Position numbers and translations under genes: made by a program. Of a stretch of DNA of 64,000 nt, positions 1,186-64,000 are shown piece by piece. The DNA is from Bacteroidia bacterium (GTDB lineage Bacteria > Bacteroidota > Bacteroidia > UKL13-3), in assembly GCA_020049855.1 (NCBI GenBank), contig JAGVLJ010000009.1, forward strand, positions 62,001 to 126,000, written 5' to 3'. The first letter of the stretch is position 1. Each line of letters begins with the position of its first letter. The notes below the pieces were generated by a model. It made no database searches. It saw nothing but the letters and a program-made list of their open reading frames with translations, and was not told the DNA's origin.

Positions 1186-1292
1186 TAGTCGTTTCAGTTG
1201 GCCGAATAAAGTATGAGTTTCACCATAGTATTATTTTAATCGTAAACTAAATGAATAACTTAGTACGTTAAGTCATTTGCAAAAAAAAATAT

Positions 1293-2549
1293 ATGGATTT
1301 TTTAAAGAATTTTTATAGTATCCTCACCAAGCGCGAACGTTTTGGTTTTTGGTTTCTTACCGCCATGAACCTCTTTTTGTTTATCATTCTCATTGGTCCA
1401 ACATCAGCTGGTGTGTTGCTTTCCGTACTTATGTTTTTGGGTACTCAGGTTATACTAGTGGCATATTACCATTTCATTAACAAGTTGGAGCGAAAAAGCC
1501 GCAACCGCGAATGGCTGGATGCCATAGCCTTTGCTATTGTAGCAGCGAGTTTAATCAGGGGTTTGCTGCTTGAAGCCTATACCATTCCTACGCCATCTAT
1601 GGAAAAATCGTTGTTGGTGGGTGATTTTTTATTTGTGAGTAAATACCATTACGGGCCTAGGATACCCATGACTCCGATTGCATTTCCATTTGCACACCAT
1701 ACCATGCCGGTAATTGAAACCAAGGCATATTCTGAATTAATCAAATTGCCTTATTACCGCCTTCCCGGTTTTCAAAAAATAAAAAACAATGATGTAGTAG
1801 TGTTTAATTATCCGGCCGATAAAGAGGGGCGACCCGTTGACAAAAAAGAAAATTATATTAAACGATGCATTGGAATTCCTGGCGATACTTTGCGAATTGT
1901 AGATGCACAGGTGTACATCAATGAAAAACTAAATCCAAATCCTCCGGGATTACAAGCCCGTTACCTAGTGAAGGCTGATCAATACGGATTTAACCGATTA
2001 ACCATGAAAGAAATTGGTATTGAGGAGTATGCACAAATTTCAGATAGCGGAGATTTTATGATGATAATGAGCAATGTTGCCAGAGAAAAATTTGCGAAGC
2101 TGAACAATGTGAAAAATGTTCAGGTTAGTTCAGAAATGCGCGGGTTATTTTCTCCTTATATTTATCCGTATCATAAAGAGTTGAACTGGAATCTTGATCA
2201 ATTTGGGCCTTTGTATATTCCAAAATGTGGAGATGTAATTAAACTATCAGAGCAGAACTATTGGATTTACGAGCGTCCAATAAAGGAGTATGAAAACAAT
2301 CCTACCTTAGAGTGGAAAGATGGTAAGGCATGGCTTGATGGAAAACCAATAGAGAGCTATCGCTTTAAAATGAATTATTATTTTATGATGGGTGATAACC
2401 GATACAACTCGGAAGATTCGCGTTTCTGGGGCTTTGTTCCCGAAGACCATATAGTAGGGAAAGCGGTATTTATTTGGATGAGTTGGGATACCAATGGCAA
2501 ATGGTTTAATAAAATACGTTGGGGCAGGTTGTTCAACCTCATTCATTAA
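1293..2549 (+). CDS. lepB: Signal peptidase I (LepB)
   Basis: Membrane-bound serine protease that removes signal peptides from exported proteins. At 418 residues it is longer than E. coli LepB (324). Hydrophobic segments lie at about 20-60 and 77-95. The catalytic Ser is in PTPSMEKSLLVGD (Ser102), the general-base Lys in YIKRCIGIPGD (about Lys190), and box E is GDNRYNSEDSRFWGFVP near 368-384. The extra length is a segment of about 170 residues between the Lys box and box E, as is common in Bacteroidota signal peptidases. The third and last gene of the DUF5683-dapB-lepB group. No clear promoter was found in the 107-nt gap, so it probably shares the upstream transcript. Confidence 0.95.
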   Translation: MDFLKNFYSILTKRERFGFWFLTAMNLFLFIILIGPTSAGVLLSVLMFLGTQVILVAYYHFINKLERKSRNREWLDAIAFAIVAASLIRGLLLEAYTIPTPSMEKSLLVGDFLFVSKYHYGPRIPMTPIAFPFAHHTMPVIETKAYSELIKLPYYRLPGFQKIKNNDVVVFNYPADKEGRPVDKKENYIKRCIGIPGDTLRIVDAQVYINEKLNPNPPGLQARYLVKADQYGFNRLTMKEIGIEEYAQISDSGDFMMIMSNVAREKFAKLNNVKNVQVSSEMRGLFSPYIYPYHKELNWNLDQFGPLYIPKCGDVIKLSEQNYWIYERPIKEYENNPTLEWKDGKAWLDGKPIESYRFKMNYYFMMGDNRYNSEDSRFWGFVPEDHIVGKAVFIWMSWDTNGKWFNKIRWGRLFNLIH

Positions 2550-42791: not shown

Positions 42792-43640
42792 TTATTTATT
42801 GAAAAAATCTTTACAATATTTCTGTAAAAAACCTTTGGCCGCACTGTTCCCGATTACTTCGGCAGTTTTGAAATCTTCACAGGCTCCTTCTCCGTCTTTT
42901 ATTGATAAACGGGCAAAAGCACGATTGATGAGGACTACAGTATTGCCCGGGTATTTTTTTAGAATAGAAGAGTAGTCATCAATGGCACCTTTTACATCTT
43001 TAAAGAATTTTTTGCAGGAGGCTCGGTTGTTAAAAGCTTTCATCTGAAACAAATCCGGATTAAGGATAATTACCGTGTCATAGTCAGCCATGGCACTGCG
43101 ATAATTGCCCATTGTTTCATAGATTAATGCGCGTTGAAAATGATATTCGGCATTTTTCTTTTCATAAAAAATGGCATTGTTTAAATCGGAGAGTGCCTCG
43201 TCATTGAATCCGTTGTTAAATAAAATTACTCCTCGATTAAAATAGCCTTTGGCATAATTAGGTTTGCTCAATACTGCTGCATTCACATCTCTAAATGCAG
43301 CTAGGGTATCGCCCATTTCGTAATAGTTTAGTCCGCGCATTAAATAGGCCTCGTGGTCTTTTGGAAAATGAGTGATTACCTGAGTAAAATGTTCATTAGC
43401 GGTTTTCAATTGTTTTAAGTTAGTGTATGCAATCCCCAACCCCATATGGCATTCAATAAAATTAGGCTCGGTTTTCAGGGCTTTATTAAACCGAACAATG
43501 CATTCATTGTATTTTCCATTATTCAATAAACCATTTGCTACATCATATTGTTGCCTAGCTACGGGGTTTATTTTATTGTTTTGGGCAATAGAATCTCCTG
43601 AAATAGCACAACAAGCAAGAATAAAAAATAGTTTACGCAT
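42792..43640 (-). CDS. Exported tetratricopeptide repeat protein
   Basis: 282 residues: a signal peptide ([19 protein letters not shown]) and about seven TPR units filling the mature chain, for example [40 protein letters not shown] and [21 protein letters not shown]. It is probably a periplasmic scaffold. The ATG overlaps the glyA stop region by 8 nt, so translation is coupled to glyA. Confidence 0.88.
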
Positions 43641-44904
43641 AGAGTGGGAAAGCTTTCATTAAAGTGTTTACTCGTTTTCGAACAGATTTGATTGTTCTTT
43701 CATTTTCATGATTCATGAGTACTTCATCAATGAACTCAACAATCAGACCCATTTGTTTTTCTTTCATCCCTCGTGTGGTGATAGCTGCTGATCCAATGCG
43801 GATTCCTGAAGTAATAAATGGGGATTTATCATCAAATGGAACCATGTTTTTGTTTAAAGTAATATCGGCCTGCACCAGCGCATTTTCAGCGGCCTTGCCC
43901 GATATATTTTTGTTGCGAAGGTCAATCAGCATTAAATGATTATCGGTTCCACCAGTGGTTAATTGGTAACCTGCATCTGTAAGTCCTTTAGCCAAAGCCT
44001 GTGCATTTTTAATTACCTGTTTGCAATATGATTCGTAATTTTTGGTTAATGCCTCGCCAAAGGCCACAGCTTTTGCGGCAATTACATGCTCTAGTGGGCC
44101 GCCTTGTGTACCCGGGAAAACAGCACCATCCAACACTGCCGACATAGATTTTATTTCGCCCTTTAAGGTTCGTTGGTTAAACGGATTGTCGAAATCCTTG
44201 CCAATCATAATCAAGCCTCCTCTGGGGCCGCGAAGGGTTTTGTGAGTAGTGGTGGTTACTATATGGCAATGGGGCATAGGGTTGTTAAGTAATTTGGTGG
44301 CGATTAAACCGGATGGGTGCGAAATATCGGCTAGTAAAATGGCTCCAACCTTATCCGCAATCTGACGCAGTTTTTTATAATCCCAGTCGCGCGGATAAGC
44401 CGAAGCACCGCAAATAATCATTTTTGGTTTTTCTTTTACGGCAATATCTTCTATCTTGTTAAAATCAATTCGTCCGGTTGATTTTTCTACTCCATAAAAA
44501 ACCGGGCGATACAATTTACCTGAAAAATTTACTGGTGAGCCATGTGTTAAATGTCCGCCATGCGAAAGATCAAAACCAAGAATGGTATCGCCAGGATTTA
44601 AACAACCAAGCATAACAGCTGCATTAGCCTGTGCACCTGAATGCGGTTGCACATTAGCCCACGTGGCTCCAAATAATTTGCACGCCCGGTCAATCGCTAA
44701 TTGTTCAATTTCGTCCACCACTTCACAACCTCCGTAATACCTGCGTCCGGGTAAACCTTCGGCATATTTGTTTGTAAGCACACTACCCATAGCTTCCATT
44801 ACCTGAGGGCTTACAAAATTTTCAGATGCAATCAGTTCAATTCCGTGCTCCTGACGTTTCGCTTCCAGATCTATGAGTTTAAAAAGAATATTATCTCGTT
44901 TCAT
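43633..44904 (-). CDS. glyA: Serine hydroxymethyltransferase (GlyA)
   Basis: PLP enzyme interconverting serine and glycine with tetrahydrofolate, supplying one-carbon units. The 423-residue protein has [37 protein letters not shown], and [20 protein letters not shown] with the PLP-binding Lys (about residue 227). [12 protein letters not shown] lies in the C-terminal domain. Length is normal. A TATATTTG element ends 20 nt before the ATG. Three small genes follow on the same transcript (TPR, methyltransferase-like, molybdopterin-fold), an unusual set of companions. Confidence 0.97.
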
Positions 44905-44924
44905 ATTTTAAATCTTAACGGGGT

Positions 44925-44932
44925 CAAATATA
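44925..44932 (-). promoter_or_regulatory. -7 promoter element for glyA
   Basis: TATATTTG on the minus strand, an exact TAnnTTTG match, ends 20 nt before the glyA ATG. Confidence 0.5.
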
Positions 44933-45163
44933 TAACTGCCTTACGGGATTCATGGCTTTGTGACGCGCTTTTTTAATGCATAGTTGCAAGTTGTCGCGTG
45001 ATTATTTTGATACGCTTAATTTGCAAGTGCTTATAAAAGTGTCTATTTTTCATAAATTTAACTCCAGTAATGTGTGCATATGTTGAAATGCCCTGTTGTA
45101 TCAAGGCTTTATATAAGATAGTTTTGAGAAAGATTTGCTAACTGATAATAATTCTTTAACGCT

Positions 45164-45319
45164 ATGCATAACAGAAGGCAGCTTCGCTACAACAGTTCTA
45201 CCGGATTCGGTTTTGCCCCGTCAAGGCAATACGGTCGAAACATCTTTAATATAAAGACATTTGTCATTTATTTAACGATGTTTTTGCTAAGTTTGCTTTA
45301 CATTGGCTTGGTGGCCTGA
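45164..45319 (+). CDS. Small membrane peptide (51 residues), unlisted short gene
   Basis: An ATG frame of 51 codons ending in TGA lies in the 544-nt gap between glyA and the DUF5686 gene. The N-terminal half is basic and rich in aromatic and small residues (NRRQLRYNSSTGFGFAPSRQ). After an Arg/Lys-containing linker (YGRNIFNIK) comes one hydrophobic segment, FVIYLTMFLLSLLYIGLVA, reaching the C-terminus. The layout is that of a single-span inner-membrane peptide with cytoplasmic N-terminus. No homologue comes to mind with certainty, and no strong -7 element was found. The amino-acid pattern is more protein-like than expected for random AT-rich DNA. Confidence 0.5.
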   Translation: MHNRRQLRYNSSTGFGFAPSRQYGRNIFNIKTFVIYLTMFLLSLLYIGLVA

Positions 45320-45433
45320 ATAATCGGTAGCATTACTTGGTTTGGGGTGAATTATTTTAACCCTATTGATAACTATCGGCCTGCATTACCAAACCCTCAC
45401 TTATTTCTTCATGCTTGTGCCCTGTTCCTGTAG

Positions 45434-45448: not shown

Positions 45449-47977
45449 ATGTGGCGACTTCTATTATCAGGGTGCATATTATTTTTTTCGCAAAATTTTT
45501 TGTGGGCAAGACACCTGCACGGCTTAGTAACCAACGCAATTACTCACGAGCCCCTTGCCTTTGCCAATGTATATTTAAAAGAAGGACAATTGGGCACAGT
45601 TACAAACGGAGATGGGGCTTATGACTTACTTTTGCCCGAAGGAGATTACACCGTGGTATTTCGTTATCTGGGTTATCGCAGCTTAGAGAAAAATGTAAAA
45701 GTTGCACAGTTTGATGTAGAATTGAATGTGCAACTGCAAGAAGATAAAATGGAATTGAATACTATAACGGTAAAGGCAGGTGATGAAGATCCTGCTTATG
45801 CCATTATACGGGAGGCCATAAAAAAAAGGGAGTATTATCTTAGTCAGGTACAAACCTATTCGTGTCAGGTATATATAAAAGGAGTGCAGCGTTTAATTGA
45901 AATGCCCGAACGAATTATGGGCATACCAACATCGAGTATGGTAATAAACGACATGGCAGCCAACGACAGTAACCTGCAAGGAATTATTTATTTGTCGGAA
46001 TCGGTTTCAAAATTTAATTATCAAGTACCAAACAAAATTCAGGAAGAGATGGTTTCGTCAAGGGTAAGTGGTAAAAATAACGCATTTAGCTACAACAAAG
46101 CTTCGGATATGCTGTTCGATTTTTATAAGAATAAATTGCATATTGCTGCCATTAGCGAACGTGATTTTATTTCGCCTGTGGCGTACAACGCATTGTTTTA
46201 TTATCGGTATAAATTACATGGAGCTTTTGTTGATGATGGATACCTCATTAATAAAATTCAGGTTATACCAAAACGAAAACACGACCCTTGTTTTTCAGGA
46301 TTTATTTATATTGTAGAAAAGGAATGGCGACTACATAGTATTAATGTATTAATTACTTCTAATGCCCAAATTGATTTTGTAGATACGCTTCGAATTCAGC
46401 AGGTGTTTGCACCAATTTCGAAAGACGTATGGATGCCCGTATCTAACCGCTTCGATTTTTTGTTTGATGTAATGGGTATAAAGGGAAACGGATATTATCA
46501 AGGAATAAATAGCCATTATAACCTACGCCCTGAATTTACAAAAAAAACTTTCTCCGGTCCCGAATGGAAAGTATTGGAAGATTCGAACAAAAAGGATTCT
46601 GTTTATTGGGATAGTATTCGACCTTATAAATTGACGGAAGAAGAGCGAAGCAATTACAGGGAAAAAGACAGTATGCAAAAGATATTTAACTCAAAAACAT
46701 ACCTCGACTCGCTTGATAAAAGGGTTAACAAACCAAGTATTTTTTCGTTGGTTATATCGGGCTACAGATATAAAAACAGGTATCGAAAAGAGGTGTGGAG
46801 CGTTAGCGGGCTTGCCCCAAGTTTTCAGTTTAATACGGTAGAGGGTGGGGTAATCAATCTGAACATGAGTTATGATAAAATAACCGAAGGGGAACAACGA
46901 TTTTTTGTTTCTCCTACACTTAGGTATGGGTTTAGTAATGGGCATTTCAATCCAAAATTACTTGTGTACAAATTAATCAATAGCCAAAACTTTACAAGTG
47001 CTTTTGTTAATGCAGGAAGCGATGTGGTTCAATTCAATAATCTGCAACCCATAACCCCCTTCTTAAACACCTTTTATACATTGCTTAATGAGCAAAATTT
47101 TATGAAAACCTATGAGAAGGTTTTTGTGCGTGGGGGCTATCGGAAGGAATTGATAAACGGAGTATATCTGCGAAGCGAGGCCGAGTGGGCACATCGTTAT
47201 GCCTTGCAAAATACTTCTTACTATAAACTGGTAGACGATGTATATGGTGATTTTACATCAAACGACCCTGTAGATACAGCCAACTATGGGCCCTCATTTA
47301 AACCACATCAGGCTTTCACTATAGCCCTGAGTGTGGTGTTTCGCTTTAAACAAACTTATGATTTACGTCCGAATCAGAAGATTATTACAGGATCAAAATA
47401 TCCCTCCCTCACCTTGAATTATAAAAAAGGAATTTTTGGAATTGGTGGGAGCGATGTAAACTATGATTTTATCAAAGCAATGATAAAAGATAATATTCAT
47501 TTGGGCTTATGGGGTACGCTAAGTTATCAGATAACAGCTGCAGCTTTCATTAATACTCGTTATATATACTTTATGGATTACTACCATATAAATGGGAATC
47601 GCACTTTTGCACTGAATAAATTAAAAGACCCCGGAGACGTTGGTGGAGAGCAGGGTACAATATCCGGTTTTATGCTAAATGATTATTATGTATTCAGTAC
47701 CACAAAACCAGTAATTGAGACTCATGCGGAGCATCATTTTAATGGCTTTCTTGTAAATAAATTACCTTTGCTGCGCAAAACCGGGTTTCAGGAGGTGATG
47801 GGTATACATTACCTCGCAAACAATGGGCAAAGCCATTATGCTGAGTTAAGTTTAGGAATTGAGCATATTGGTTTAGGTGGGTTTATGCCCGGTTTTTTAC
47901 GCATTGATTACGTTTCTTCGTTTACCAATATCTATGGACAATTAAGACATGGAATACGTTTTGGCTTTGGATTTTAA
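45449..47977 (+). CDS. DUF5686 family outer-membrane protein with carboxypeptidase-regulatory domain
   Basis: 842 residues. A signal peptide (LLLSGCILFFSQNFLWA) precedes a carboxypeptidase-regulatory-like beta-sandwich of about 80 residues (HGLVTNAITHEPLAFANVYL, GTVTNGDGAYDLLLPEGDYTVVFRYLGY). Then comes the DUF5686 region (AYAIIREAIKKREYYLSQV, YIKGVQRL) and a C-terminal beta-barrel with many aromatic strands ending RHGIRFGFGF, a typical outer-membrane C-terminus with terminal Phe. No TonB plug domain is seen, so it is not a standard receptor. The family function is unknown. It is followed 9 nt later by the aldehyde dehydrogenase gene. Confidence 0.87.
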   Translation: MWRLLLSGCILFFSQNFLWARHLHGLVTNAITHEPLAFANVYLKEGQLGTVTNGDGAYDLLLPEGDYTVVFRYLGYRSLEKNVKVAQFDVELNVQLQEDKMELNTITVKAGDEDPAYAIIREAIKKREYYLSQVQTYSCQVYIKGVQRLIEMPERIMGIPTSSMVINDMAANDSNLQGIIYLSESVSKFNYQVPNKIQEEMVSSRVSGKNNAFSYNKASDMLFDFYKNKLHIAAISERDFISPVAYNALFYYRYKLHGAFVDDGYLINKIQVIPKRKHDPCFSGFIYIVEKEWRLHSINVLITSNAQIDFVDTLRIQQVFAPISKDVWMPVSNRFDFLFDVMGIKGNGYYQGINSHYNLRPEFTKKTFSGPEWKVLEDSNKKDSVYWDSIRPYKLTEEERSNYREKDSMQKIFNSKTYLDSLDKRVNKPSIFSLVISGYRYKNRYRKEVWSVSGLAPSFQFNTVEGGVINLNMSYDKITEGEQRFFVSPTLRYGFSNGHFNPKLLVYKLINSQNFTSAFVNAGSDVVQFNNLQPITPFLNTFYTLLNEQNFMKTYEKVFVRGGYRKELINGVYLRSEAEWAHRYALQNTSYYKLVDDVYGDFTSNDPVDTANYGPSFKPHQAFTIALSVVFRFKQTYDLRPNQKIITGSKYPSLTLNYKKGIFGIGGSDVNYDFIKAMIKDNIHLGLWGTLSYQITAAAFINTRYIYFMDYYHINGNRTFALNKLKDPGDVGGEQGTISGFMLNDYYVFSTTKPVIETHAEHHFNGFLVNKLPLLRKTGFQEVMGIHYLANNGQSHYAELSLGIEHIGLGGFMPGFLRIDYVSSFTNIYGQLRHGIRFGFGF

Positions 47978-49429: not shown

Positions 49430-50176
49430 TTACTTACGAATGCTGTAACCTGTTCCAATTCGTGCTACTCTTTTAAATTCAAGGGGCTCGTGGTTCAGGT
49501 AAAACACATTTCCTGAATTGTAAATATAAACTTCAAGACCCTTATAGGCATCAACTTTAATATCATTTTTTCCATAGTGGTTCACAAATACGTAAGCTCC
49601 CAAAATTCCCTGTAAATTGGTTTTGCCAAATCCTTCCTGATTTACAACCAAGATATTTGCGGTTCCATCTGCTGCCACATCCCCTTGTAATTTCTGATTA
49701 ATAATGAGGTAATCAAAACTGCCATACACGTACATATCATTTGAACTTTCATTAAGTAAAGTTACCACCCCTTGTGCAAGTGAATCTGACCCAACCACCG
49801 CAGCATCCTCTATGGTATGTATCATTCCAAGTGTGTGTACATTTATTTCAACGGGGATTCTGTTTTGAAAACTCCGTACCCAGTTGCACACATTTTGGTT
49901 ATCAATATAAAGCACACCACGGTCAATATTGGTAATTATTTGGCCAAGTAAATTGCTGCCTGCGGTGATTTTTATATAGGGAGGTTTGGAAAGGTCTTGT
50001 TTTAAATAGATATCGAAATAATCGCTTGCTTTAATATCCGTAAAGTTAGCCAGATAACGAGTTACGGTCTTTGACTTACCCTTAGCGGTAATGCAATCAT
50101 CCATTTGCTCACCTGTGCAGGTACTCAGGGTGAACAAAAGAACTAAATAGAAGAATAAATTAACCCGCATTTTCAT
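49430..50176 (-). CDS. GIN-domain (DUF2807) putative auto-transporter adhesin, lipoprotein
   Basis: 248 residues with a lipoprotein signal ending LLFTLSTC, followed by the DUF2807 beta-solenoid-like 'head GIN' domain: FTDIKASDYFDIYLKQDL, PYIKITAGSNLLGQIIT, VEINVHTLGMIHTIEDA, and repeated short strands to the end. The domain is common in Bacteroidota surface or periplasmic proteins and is annotated as putative adhesin, but experimental function is lacking. The ATG overlaps the TGA of the upstream PagL-like gene by 4 nt, so the two are coupled. Its stop abuts the aldehyde dehydrogenase stop with no gap. Confidence 0.85.
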   Translation of the reverse strand: MKMRVNLFFYLVLLFTLSTCTGEQMDDCITAKGKSKTVTRYLANFTDIKASDYFDIYLKQDLSKPPYIKITAGSNLLGQIITNIDRGVLYIDNQNVCNWVRSFQNRIPVEINVHTLGMIHTIEDAAVVGSDSLAQGVVTLLNESSNDMYVYGSFDYLIINQKLQGDVAADGTANILVVNQEGFGKTNLQGILGAYVFVNHYGKNDIKVDAYKGLEVYIYNSGNVFYLNHEPLEFKRVARIGTGYSIRK

Positions 50177-51321
50177 TTATGATAAAACTGATACCCTGCT
50201 ATCCATTCTACAAAATCTGCTTGCATGAAATGTGTTTTTAGGAAACTTCCTATAAAAAAACCTTTATATATTTCCGTTTTTAATCCAATGCGTTGATAGA
50301 TTGCCTTTTTTGCCTTATATGGGTAATAGGTATATGCACCCAATTGCGTGATCATGCTTACTCTTCCTGCTTTTAACTCATGCCCCACCGTAATGCCGAC
50401 CTGTAAATTATCTTTTAGTCGGGCACTTGTGTAATTTTGTAAATCTGGTGTGCTTAGGTAAAAAAACGATTTGTCATAAAATATATCTACACCAGTAAGC
50501 CAGGTACTGCGCATACTTATCCTGTACTGAAAATTTGATGAAATGGTGAAGACATCAAATCTTCTGAATCGCTCATTTCCCTGTTCTTTATATGCCCACC
50601 CGCCAAAAAAGTAATACCCCCATTTTTTTTCGGTGTCAAATTTTTGATTCATGCTATCCATTACCGGAATTTGGCGTATGTAAGGATTGCTTAAAAAATA
50701 GCTTAACCCAACCGAAGCAGATGGATAATTAATGCCAAGGTTAGGCAATCGGATATTTCCTGAGGAGAAGTGCATAAGGCCTAAGCCAGCATTAAGTTCA
50801 ATGTTTTTATATAGGCGTTGATGATAAACCAGCATTGCCTGAAAGGATAGATTTAACGGAGAGCCTATGGTAATATTTTTATAGTTATCCTGTGCATCAA
50901 AAATTTTTGTAAGGTAGCCCAATCCGGTGCCAAGTTTAAAGTTAAATTCAGCATTCTGTTTTCTAATTATGCCGAATTCAAATTGAGGTATTATTGAATA
51001 AGCTTTTCCTGTAAGGTTGGGTTTTCCAAAATCTGTGTATAAAAATGAAACACTTATTCTGGGAAGTTTGTATTTAATCTCCCACGGTCTATTCCCGTTG
51101 GTTTTTTTAATTAGTTGCAGTTCAAAAGAATTCCCAGGCCCATAAATATTTTTATTTTTATCGCTGTGTGCCCAAATAAATCCGGGTAAGTCATTAAAGG
51201 CTATTCCCAGAGGGGCTTCGTGTATAAAATGATACAAAAAACGGCTTCTGTCCTGTGCTTTCACCACCGATATAAACGCAAAAATAATACTTAAAAGGAT
51301 GACTCCCCTTCGTTTTAACAT
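50173..51321 (-). CDS. PagL-like lipid A 3-O-deacylase / acyloxyacyl hydrolase family outer-membrane protein
   Basis: 382 residues from the ATG at 51321, with signal peptide KRRGVILLSIIFAFISVVKAQ. The frame extends to 51468, but that lead is not signal-like. The chain is a beta-barrel, and the segment LGLMHFSSGNIRLPNLGINYPSASVGLSYF fits the PagL active-site region (His-Ser followed by N-x-G), where the His/Ser pair removes the 3-O acyl chain of lipid A. It is longer than Pseudomonas PagL by an extra barrel part of about 150 residues. Assignment rests on this motif and the barrel; substrate specificity is not established. A TAAATTG element ends 6 nt before the ATG. Confidence 0.75.
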   Translation of the reverse strand: MLKRRGVILLSIIFAFISVVKAQDRSRFLYHFIHEAPLGIAFNDLPGFIWAHSDKNKNIYGPGNSFELQLIKKTNGNRPWEIKYKLPRISVSFLYTDFGKPNLTGKAYSIIPQFEFGIIRKQNAEFNFKLGTGLGYLTKIFDAQDNYKNITIGSPLNLSFQAMLVYHQRLYKNIELNAGLGLMHFSSGNIRLPNLGINYPSASVGLSYFLSNPYIRQIPVMDSMNQKFDTEKKWGYYFFGGWAYKEQGNERFRRFDVFTISSNFQYRISMRSTWLTGVDIFYDKSFFYLSTPDLQNYTSARLKDNLQVGITVGHELKAGRVSMITQLGAYTYYPYKAKKAIYQRIGLKTEIYKGFFIGSFLKTHFMQADFVEWIAGYQFYHK

Positions 51322-51327
51322 GGGTGG

Positions 51328-51334
51328 CAATTTA
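51328..51334 (-). promoter_or_regulatory. Candidate -7 element for the PagL-like gene
   Basis: TAAATTG on the minus strand (a TAnnTTTG variant lacking one T) ends 6 nt before the ATG at 51321, supporting that start over the upstream extension. Confidence 0.35.
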
Positions 51335-51829
51335 CAATTCTTTTTATCCCTTTGCTTCTCATTCTTTATTATTGCAGTAATGTTTGGGAGACTATTCAGG
51401 TATTTTAAGATATATTTGCTTCTTACAAATAGATTCGGGGATCTCTGATTGTTTAATTGTAGATGCAAAATGGTATCATTAAGGTGGCCTGATCAGCGGT
51501 TAGTGTTAATTTGTATTGGGAAGCTACTTCATGAACGATGGAAGGGCATCTTTGTGAAACATTCCATTAAATGTAACTAATAGTGTCAGGCATTTAAAGA
51601 AAAATGATTGGTAAACATTTGGTTATATTGTGGGAATAAATAATCAAAATTACCGACAGGCATTAAAACAAGGAAACAGCCGCAACATGTTTAAAACCCA
51701 TTTAATGGGCGGGTTTGATTGTATTGTTAGGGGTAACAGAAGTGCCTTACTCATGATGTTTAGGATGGGATATTTTTGAAACATGTTAGCACATTTTTCT
51801 TAGTTGCCGCTTGAAGTTTTTTGAATTTT
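51335..51829. other. Divergent intergenic region, no gene assigned
   Basis: About 495 AT-rich nt between the PagL-like and acylphosphatase genes. No RNA gene or long repeat is evident. A short inverted pair CCCATT-TA-ATGGG nested in AAACCC/GGGTTT lies near 51692-51716; it could fold as a small hairpin but has no clear U-tract. Confidence 0.45.
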
Positions 51830-63796: not shown

Positions 63797-64000
63797 TCAT
63801 TTTTTGGGTAAATATTTTTCAACTTCCTGAGGGTTAATGTCAATTTTGTTTACTCTTTGTTTTTTCCCCAGCAAAATGCCCATAGGGAAATGTCCTACTC
63901 CCAACAATTTATTGATCTTGCGGTTTGAGTAGGCACAGTACCAGTTTACATTTGGTAATCTGGAAATTATTTGCAACGATTTGGGATTTCCTCCGTAGTG
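63797..64000 (-). CDS. C-terminal end of a protein of unknown function, possibly thioredoxin-fold (5' end outside window)
   Basis: An open minus-strand frame enters from the right edge and ends with TGA at 63799-63797, giving 67 visible residues: HYGGNPKSLQIISRLPNVNW, then YCAYSNRKINKLLGVGHFPM, GILLGKKQRV and a tail ending EVEKYLPKK. The VGHFPMGILLGKKQRVNKI part could be the cis-Pro strand and following strand of a TlpA/thioredoxin-like domain, but the redox motif would lie outside the window. This is a weak inference. It lies 72 nt upstream of the TonB-receptor ATG on the same strand. Confidence 0.55.
   Translation of the reverse strand, partial: HYGGNPKSLQIISRLPNVNWYCAYSNRKINKLLGVGHFPMGILLGKKQRVNKIDINPQEVEKYLPKK

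Follow-up and report, generated by a model that had tools for sequence, protein, structure and literature searches.

A conserved 51-codon frame between glyA and a DUF5686 gene, predicted to encode a small membrane protein in one genus of Bacteroidia

Introduction

Small membrane proteins form a familiar class of gene products, many members of which are still to be found. YohP and DinQ of E. coli are very short, consist of essentially one transmembrane helix and are easily overlooked in annotation, as described in parts of PMC7549839 and PMC3567139. In the tail-anchored proteins SciP, DjlC and Flk, treated in a section of PMC7549839, the helix is located at the extreme C-terminus and the N-terminus is inside.

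The 51-residue peptide described here is encoded in a 64,000-nt stretch of DNA from an environmental Bacteroidia bacterium, the whole of which is referred to as the window. It is similar to YohP and DinQ in its shortness and single predicted helix, but carries a 32-residue basic segment before the helix, the conservation of this segment equalling or exceeding that of the helix itself; the likeness is one of layout, no sequence relation being shown. Its predicted arrangement corresponds to that of SciP, DjlC and Flk, but a recognisable cytoplasmic domain is absent and homology to these proteins was not found. The peptide is also much shorter than all three. SecE (PF00584) is of similar length, while the peptide itself has no PF00584 match.

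Location and conservation of the frame

The gap between glyA and the DUF5686 gene is 544 nt long and contains the 51-residue ATG frame that an earlier note on this DNA had reported there:

45164..45319, plus strand: 51-codon gene of a small predicted single-pass membrane protein (open reading frame from ATG to TGA, orthologous frames, dN/dS)
L021, 6001-6156, and L022, 6001-6156: orthologous frames of the 51-codon gene

The gene glyA (43633-44904, minus strand; PF00464) starts at 44904, and the DUF5686 gene (45449-47977, plus strand), encoding PF18939 together with an N-terminal carboxypeptidase-regulatory-like domain, follows the frame on the same strand, 129 nt further on in the window. When the gap was shuffled 2000 times with its dinucleotides preserved, an ATG frame of at least 51 aa turned up on one or the other strand in 33% of the shuffles; the frame by itself is therefore little evidence. 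Frames of this length with an 18-residue stretch of hydropathy of at least 2.4 were present in 1.6% of 2000 gap shuffles.

The genus was represented by three genomes, two of them close to each other: that of the window and the Bacteroidia MAG records SSF48 (JAIBAK010000011.1) and Gw_SlAct_bin_253 (JAGPCK010000033.1; hereafter Gw253). The frame was found in all three, in the same place between glyA and the DUF5686 gene, intact and free of indels; the missing homologues or frameshifts that the earlier note had named as grounds for rejecting it were not encountered. The peptides of the two relatives are of equal length, align without a gap and are 98% and 88% identical to that of the window. Residues 5-36 are invariant across the alignment of the three species, and variable residues number 3 of 32 before the helix and 3 of 18 inside it.

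Excluding start and stop codons, the three pairs of frames differ at 10, 29 and 27 positions, leading to 1, 6 and 5 residue changes, and third codon positions account for 9/10, 21/30 and 20/28 of the differences when the stop codon is included. The dN/dS values, a check proposed in advance, are 0.029, 0.062 and 0.070. When the changes outside the start and stop codons were placed at random, an equally conservative outcome arose in 1, 0 and 0 of 5000 trials, and internal stops appeared in 26%, 67% and 68% of cases. Between the window and Gw253, 126 of 156 positions are identical within the frame, compared to 64 of 160 alignment columns in the region 44905-45063 and 53 of 130 after the stop codon. 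Judged by these substitution patterns, the 51-codon frame is well supported as a real protein-coding gene under purifying selection, which is presumably translated in the cell.

Comparison with neighbouring genes showed window-Gw253 dN values of 0.071 for the peptide, 0.138 for glyA, 0.178 for ALDH, 0.294 for TPR and 0.367 for DUF5686. Between the window and SSF48 the dN of the peptide (0.009) is likewise the lowest of the five genes, the next being glyA (0.025). For the same pair, dS of the peptide is 0.30, based on 9 changes in approximately 37 sites, versus 0.76-1.25 in the four neighbours; this low value may reflect high expression or an extra constraint at the nucleotide level.

Predicted membrane topology

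Two segments were distinguished in the peptide:

45164..45259, plus strand: basic, aromatic segment, codons 1-32, predicted to be cytoplasmic (alignment, charge, low-confidence model)
45260..45313, plus strand: predicted transmembrane helix, codons 33-50, ending one residue short of the C-terminus (Kyte-Doolittle, AlphaFold)

The peptide contains six K/R residues and no D/E (pI 11.0); all of its charges are located within residues 1-32 and none afterwards, in agreement with the basic N-terminus described earlier. The single hydrophobic C-terminal segment was likewise recovered: the 18-residue stretch of highest hydropathy starts at residue 33, with a mean Kyte-Doolittle value of 2.4, and AlphaFold, applied to the three sequences, predicted a helix over residues 20-50 (mean pLDDT 70.8, pTM 0.38). 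Mean pLDDT is 50 for residues 1-10, 52 for 11-20, 69 for 21-30, 93 for 31-40 and 90 for 41-50, the confidence being highest over the hydrophobic part and low in the N-terminal part. According to the positive-inside rule, such a distribution of charges places the N-terminus in the cytoplasm and the helix at the C-terminus. The peptide is thus predicted to be a single-pass, tail-anchored inner-membrane protein with the N-terminus inside.

Size and a single hydrophobic helix are also compatible with a membrane toxin or stress peptide of the type I kind, which would harm the membrane when over-produced and be held down by an antisense RNA; part of PMC3567139 describes DinQ of E. coli as a toxic inner-membrane peptide with one transmembrane helix and antisense RNAs. 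Such a role is unlikely, since the basic segment varies no more than the helix, each genome contains one strong match in a fixed place, and PADLOC gave no match. In addition, on the opposite strand the motif TAnnTTTG, scanned in its exact form alone, occurs over or beside the frame in none of the three species and is found only near glyA.

Upstream region

Promoters of the -33/-7 type in Bacteroidota have the form TTTG/TAnnTTTG; in Flavobacterium johnsoniae the -7 element is TAHHTTTG, the distance from it to the transcription start is 4-5 nt, the leader has a mean length of 33 nt, and G at position -10 is nearly absent, according to passages of PMC6847099. Two features were recognised upstream of the peptide gene:

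45096..45126, plus strand: promoter-like site TTG-N20-TAGTTTTG of the -33/-7 type of Bacteroidota (pattern match)
45121..45153, plus strand: 33-nt conserved block, which takes in six bases at the end of the -7 element and 23 nt at the start of the implied leader

The site 45096-45126 is the sole exact match of TTG-N20-TAnnTTTG in the window, where 1.97 would be expected by chance over 64 kb; TTG-N19-TAnnTTTG is matched at 63925 only, far from the peptide gene. It lies on the strand of the peptide gene and implies a transcription start at about 45131 and a leader of 33 nt. SSF48 contains an equivalent site with the -7 element TAGCTTTG and a spacing of 20, while Gw253 has GAATTTTG at the -7 position, one base off, the first T of the element being missing. 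The sites of the window and SSF48 both have G at -10, which counts against a promoter. On the basis of the pattern, the peptide gene is predicted to have its own promoter at 45096-45126. An E. coli-type promoter was also considered, but its 10-of-12 match over the block (45124-45152) carries little weight, as 6 such sites were found versus 4.2 expected in shuffles. All three species carry a TATATTTG element just upstream of glyA (44925-44932, minus strand), which is likely the glyA promoter.

Pairwise identity within the block is 32/33, 30/33 and 29/33, compared to 42/57, 34/57 and 30/57 just upstream of it, and the block is longer than a promoter box requires. With up to three mismatches, a 28-nt pattern from the block occurs once in the window's own genome, and a 27-nt pattern was found in 3 of 97 genomes, namely, the own genome and the two others of the genus.

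Conservation of this block, as strong as that of the frame, together with the window-SSF48 dS below the values of all four neighbours, could indicate that the conserved entity is an RNA, either a small RNA or a 5' regulatory element, and that the frame is incidental. This is extremely unlikely: the substitutions track the codon frame, nothing in the window matches Rfam at the gathering score, and the leader region folds no better than its shuffles (z-scores of 1.38, -0.48 and 0.92 in the three species). An RNA role on top of coding is possible.

Downstream region and neighbouring genes

One feature was annotated after the stop codon:

45343..45365, plus strand: hairpin, a possible weak and poorly supported transcription end, at an equal offset in SSF48

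The hairpin is absent from Gw253, the third species. As a whole, the stretches after the stop codon have folding z-scores of -0.66, -1.86 and -1.49, slightly better than shuffles in two species. The terminator scan listed no site after the peptide frame, which leaves room for co-transcription with the DUF5686 gene.

The position of the DUF5686 gene on the same strand, 129 nt downstream in the window, and the hairpin shared by two species would suit a leader peptide, the translation of which controls DUF5686 by attenuation. This function has a low probability: the stretch between the frame and DUF5686 is the poorly conserved region with 53 of 130 identical columns between the window and Gw253, its length changes from 129 nt to 238 nt in Gw253, and the hairpin is weak and missing from one species. 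Moreover, selection spans the entire amino-acid sequence of the peptide, in which no run of one regulatory residue is present.

A search with the first 350 residues of the DUF5686 protein placed its closest counterparts beyond the genus in different families of the class (G074, 51% identity; G063, 49%); within its own family, identity reaches 45-46% at best (G010 and G021). This pattern hints at transfer or unequal loss of the gene. Beside the closest DUF5686 match beyond the genus, L073 contains a 38-codon ATG frame (1270-1386, minus strand) with a hydrophobic end and no evident similarity to the peptide. Further along the window, a DUF2807 gene (49430-50176, minus strand) and a PagL-like gene (50173-51468, minus strand) overlap by 4 nt; L021 and L022 contain overlapping open reading frames in a similar position, matched by placement only.

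Distribution of the gene

Beyond the genus, relatives of the peptide were sought in several overlapping samples of genomes; in the class and phylum samples, first-look candidates were scored in part in some genomes. Among 97 genomes, 94 of them outside the genus, the outside matches were weak (34 of 94, at E 0.028-10) and taken as chance. The order sample of 64 genomes gave matches in 48 of the 61 outside the genus, at E 0.0024-1, likewise taken as chance; the best of them (G044, E 0.0024) covers 17 residues within a frame of 642 aa. In the class sample (395 genomes, 394 besides the own one) 10 genomes had matches at E 2.1e-4 to 0.01, which were also judged to be chance. The strongest of these (G197, E 2.1e-4) lies in a frame that runs antisense to the gene of an efflux pump, which we take to be CusA; the second (G266, E 2.9e-4) has stop codons inside, and the remaining eight are partial alignments, are interrupted by stops or fall within long frames. 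The phylum sample (395 genomes, 394 besides the own one) gave no matches at E 0.001. An exact peptide-pattern scan of genome contigs, which detects close relatives only, returned SSF48 and Gw_SlAct_bin_253 alone.

Peptide matches were absent from 102 candidate stretches of viral contigs, from phage records and from PADLOC, and the best matches in PHROGs (E 0.024, a family of unknown function) and PDB (E 1.2) were weak. Pfam and NCBIfam listed no match at E up to 10. Word searches of the literature, made by topic and not by sequence, returned nothing on this gene and nothing on DUF5686.

These database results also bear on the idea that the peptide is a known small membrane subunit, e.g., SecE, drifted past recognition. 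SecE is comparably short (PF00584 has 55 positions) and has a C-terminal helix, but a separate SecE above the Pfam cut-off is encoded elsewhere in all three genomes, and the peptide matches no Pfam or NCBIfam family. SecE identity is ruled out by this separate SecE and by the failure of the peptide to match PF00584, and drift from some known subunit, of which SecE was the one examined individually, is very improbable.

The glyA and DUF5686 searches matched 57 and 56 of 58 genomes, respectively. A partial set of 60 loci (30 of the places found by glyA and 30 of those found by DUF5686, with flanks up to 1500 nt; 54 outside the genus) was searched by profile for stop-to-stop frames of 25-150 residues, the best outside match having E 0.09. 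At 11 DUF5686 loci outside the genus, the upstream sequence was surveyed for short hydrophobic ATG frames, none of which is peptide-like by eye. Among the loci read, the glyA-DUF5686 neighbourhood itself is confined to the genus, glyA being present within flanks of at most 1500 nt at 3 of 30 DUF5686 loci. Of the conserved synteny across Bacteroidota for which the earlier note proposed a search, the part within the genus stood (three of three genomes), while beyond it the gene was not found.

In other genera of the family glyA is 70-78% identical, and the peptide evolves more slowly than GlyA; the peptide gene would therefore be easily findable in these genera if present. As convincing relatives were not found elsewhere in the genomes searched, the gene appears to be restricted to this genus, and the absence of any trace in other genera points to a gain in this genus or a loss elsewhere.

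Discussion

Taken together, the sequence comparisons and predictions are best explained by a real, single-copy, genus-restricted gene with its own promoter, encoding a tail-anchored inner-membrane protein that probably assists or regulates a larger membrane complex as its partner. The promoter, divergent from glyA, would drive synthesis of the 51-residue protein, which a single C-terminal helix would hold in the inner membrane, its N-terminus lying in the cytoplasm. The extramembrane segment would bind a fixed partner, and the role of the peptide would be that of a small subunit, accessory or regulatory, within a larger membrane protein or complex, and not that of a bulk membrane peptide. We infer partner binding and the subunit role because the part outside the membrane varies no more than the helix does. 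Readings of the locus as a toxin, a leader peptide, an RNA only or a drifted subunit are each less well supported than the accessory subunit.

A further proposal is more doubtful, though conceivable: that the gene arose or was acquired in the genus, that its product, a lineage-specific membrane microprotein evolving more slowly than serine hydroxymethyltransferase, came to rank among the most constrained proteins encoded nearby, and that a conserved mRNA leader regulates the gene.

The peptide represents a clean new case of a small membrane protein with strong comparative evidence of coding. It is uncommon for a protein to evolve so slowly within a genus and yet leave no trace in sibling genera, and this makes the gene a case on which to test how microproteins that are young or bound to one lineage acquire a fixed role.
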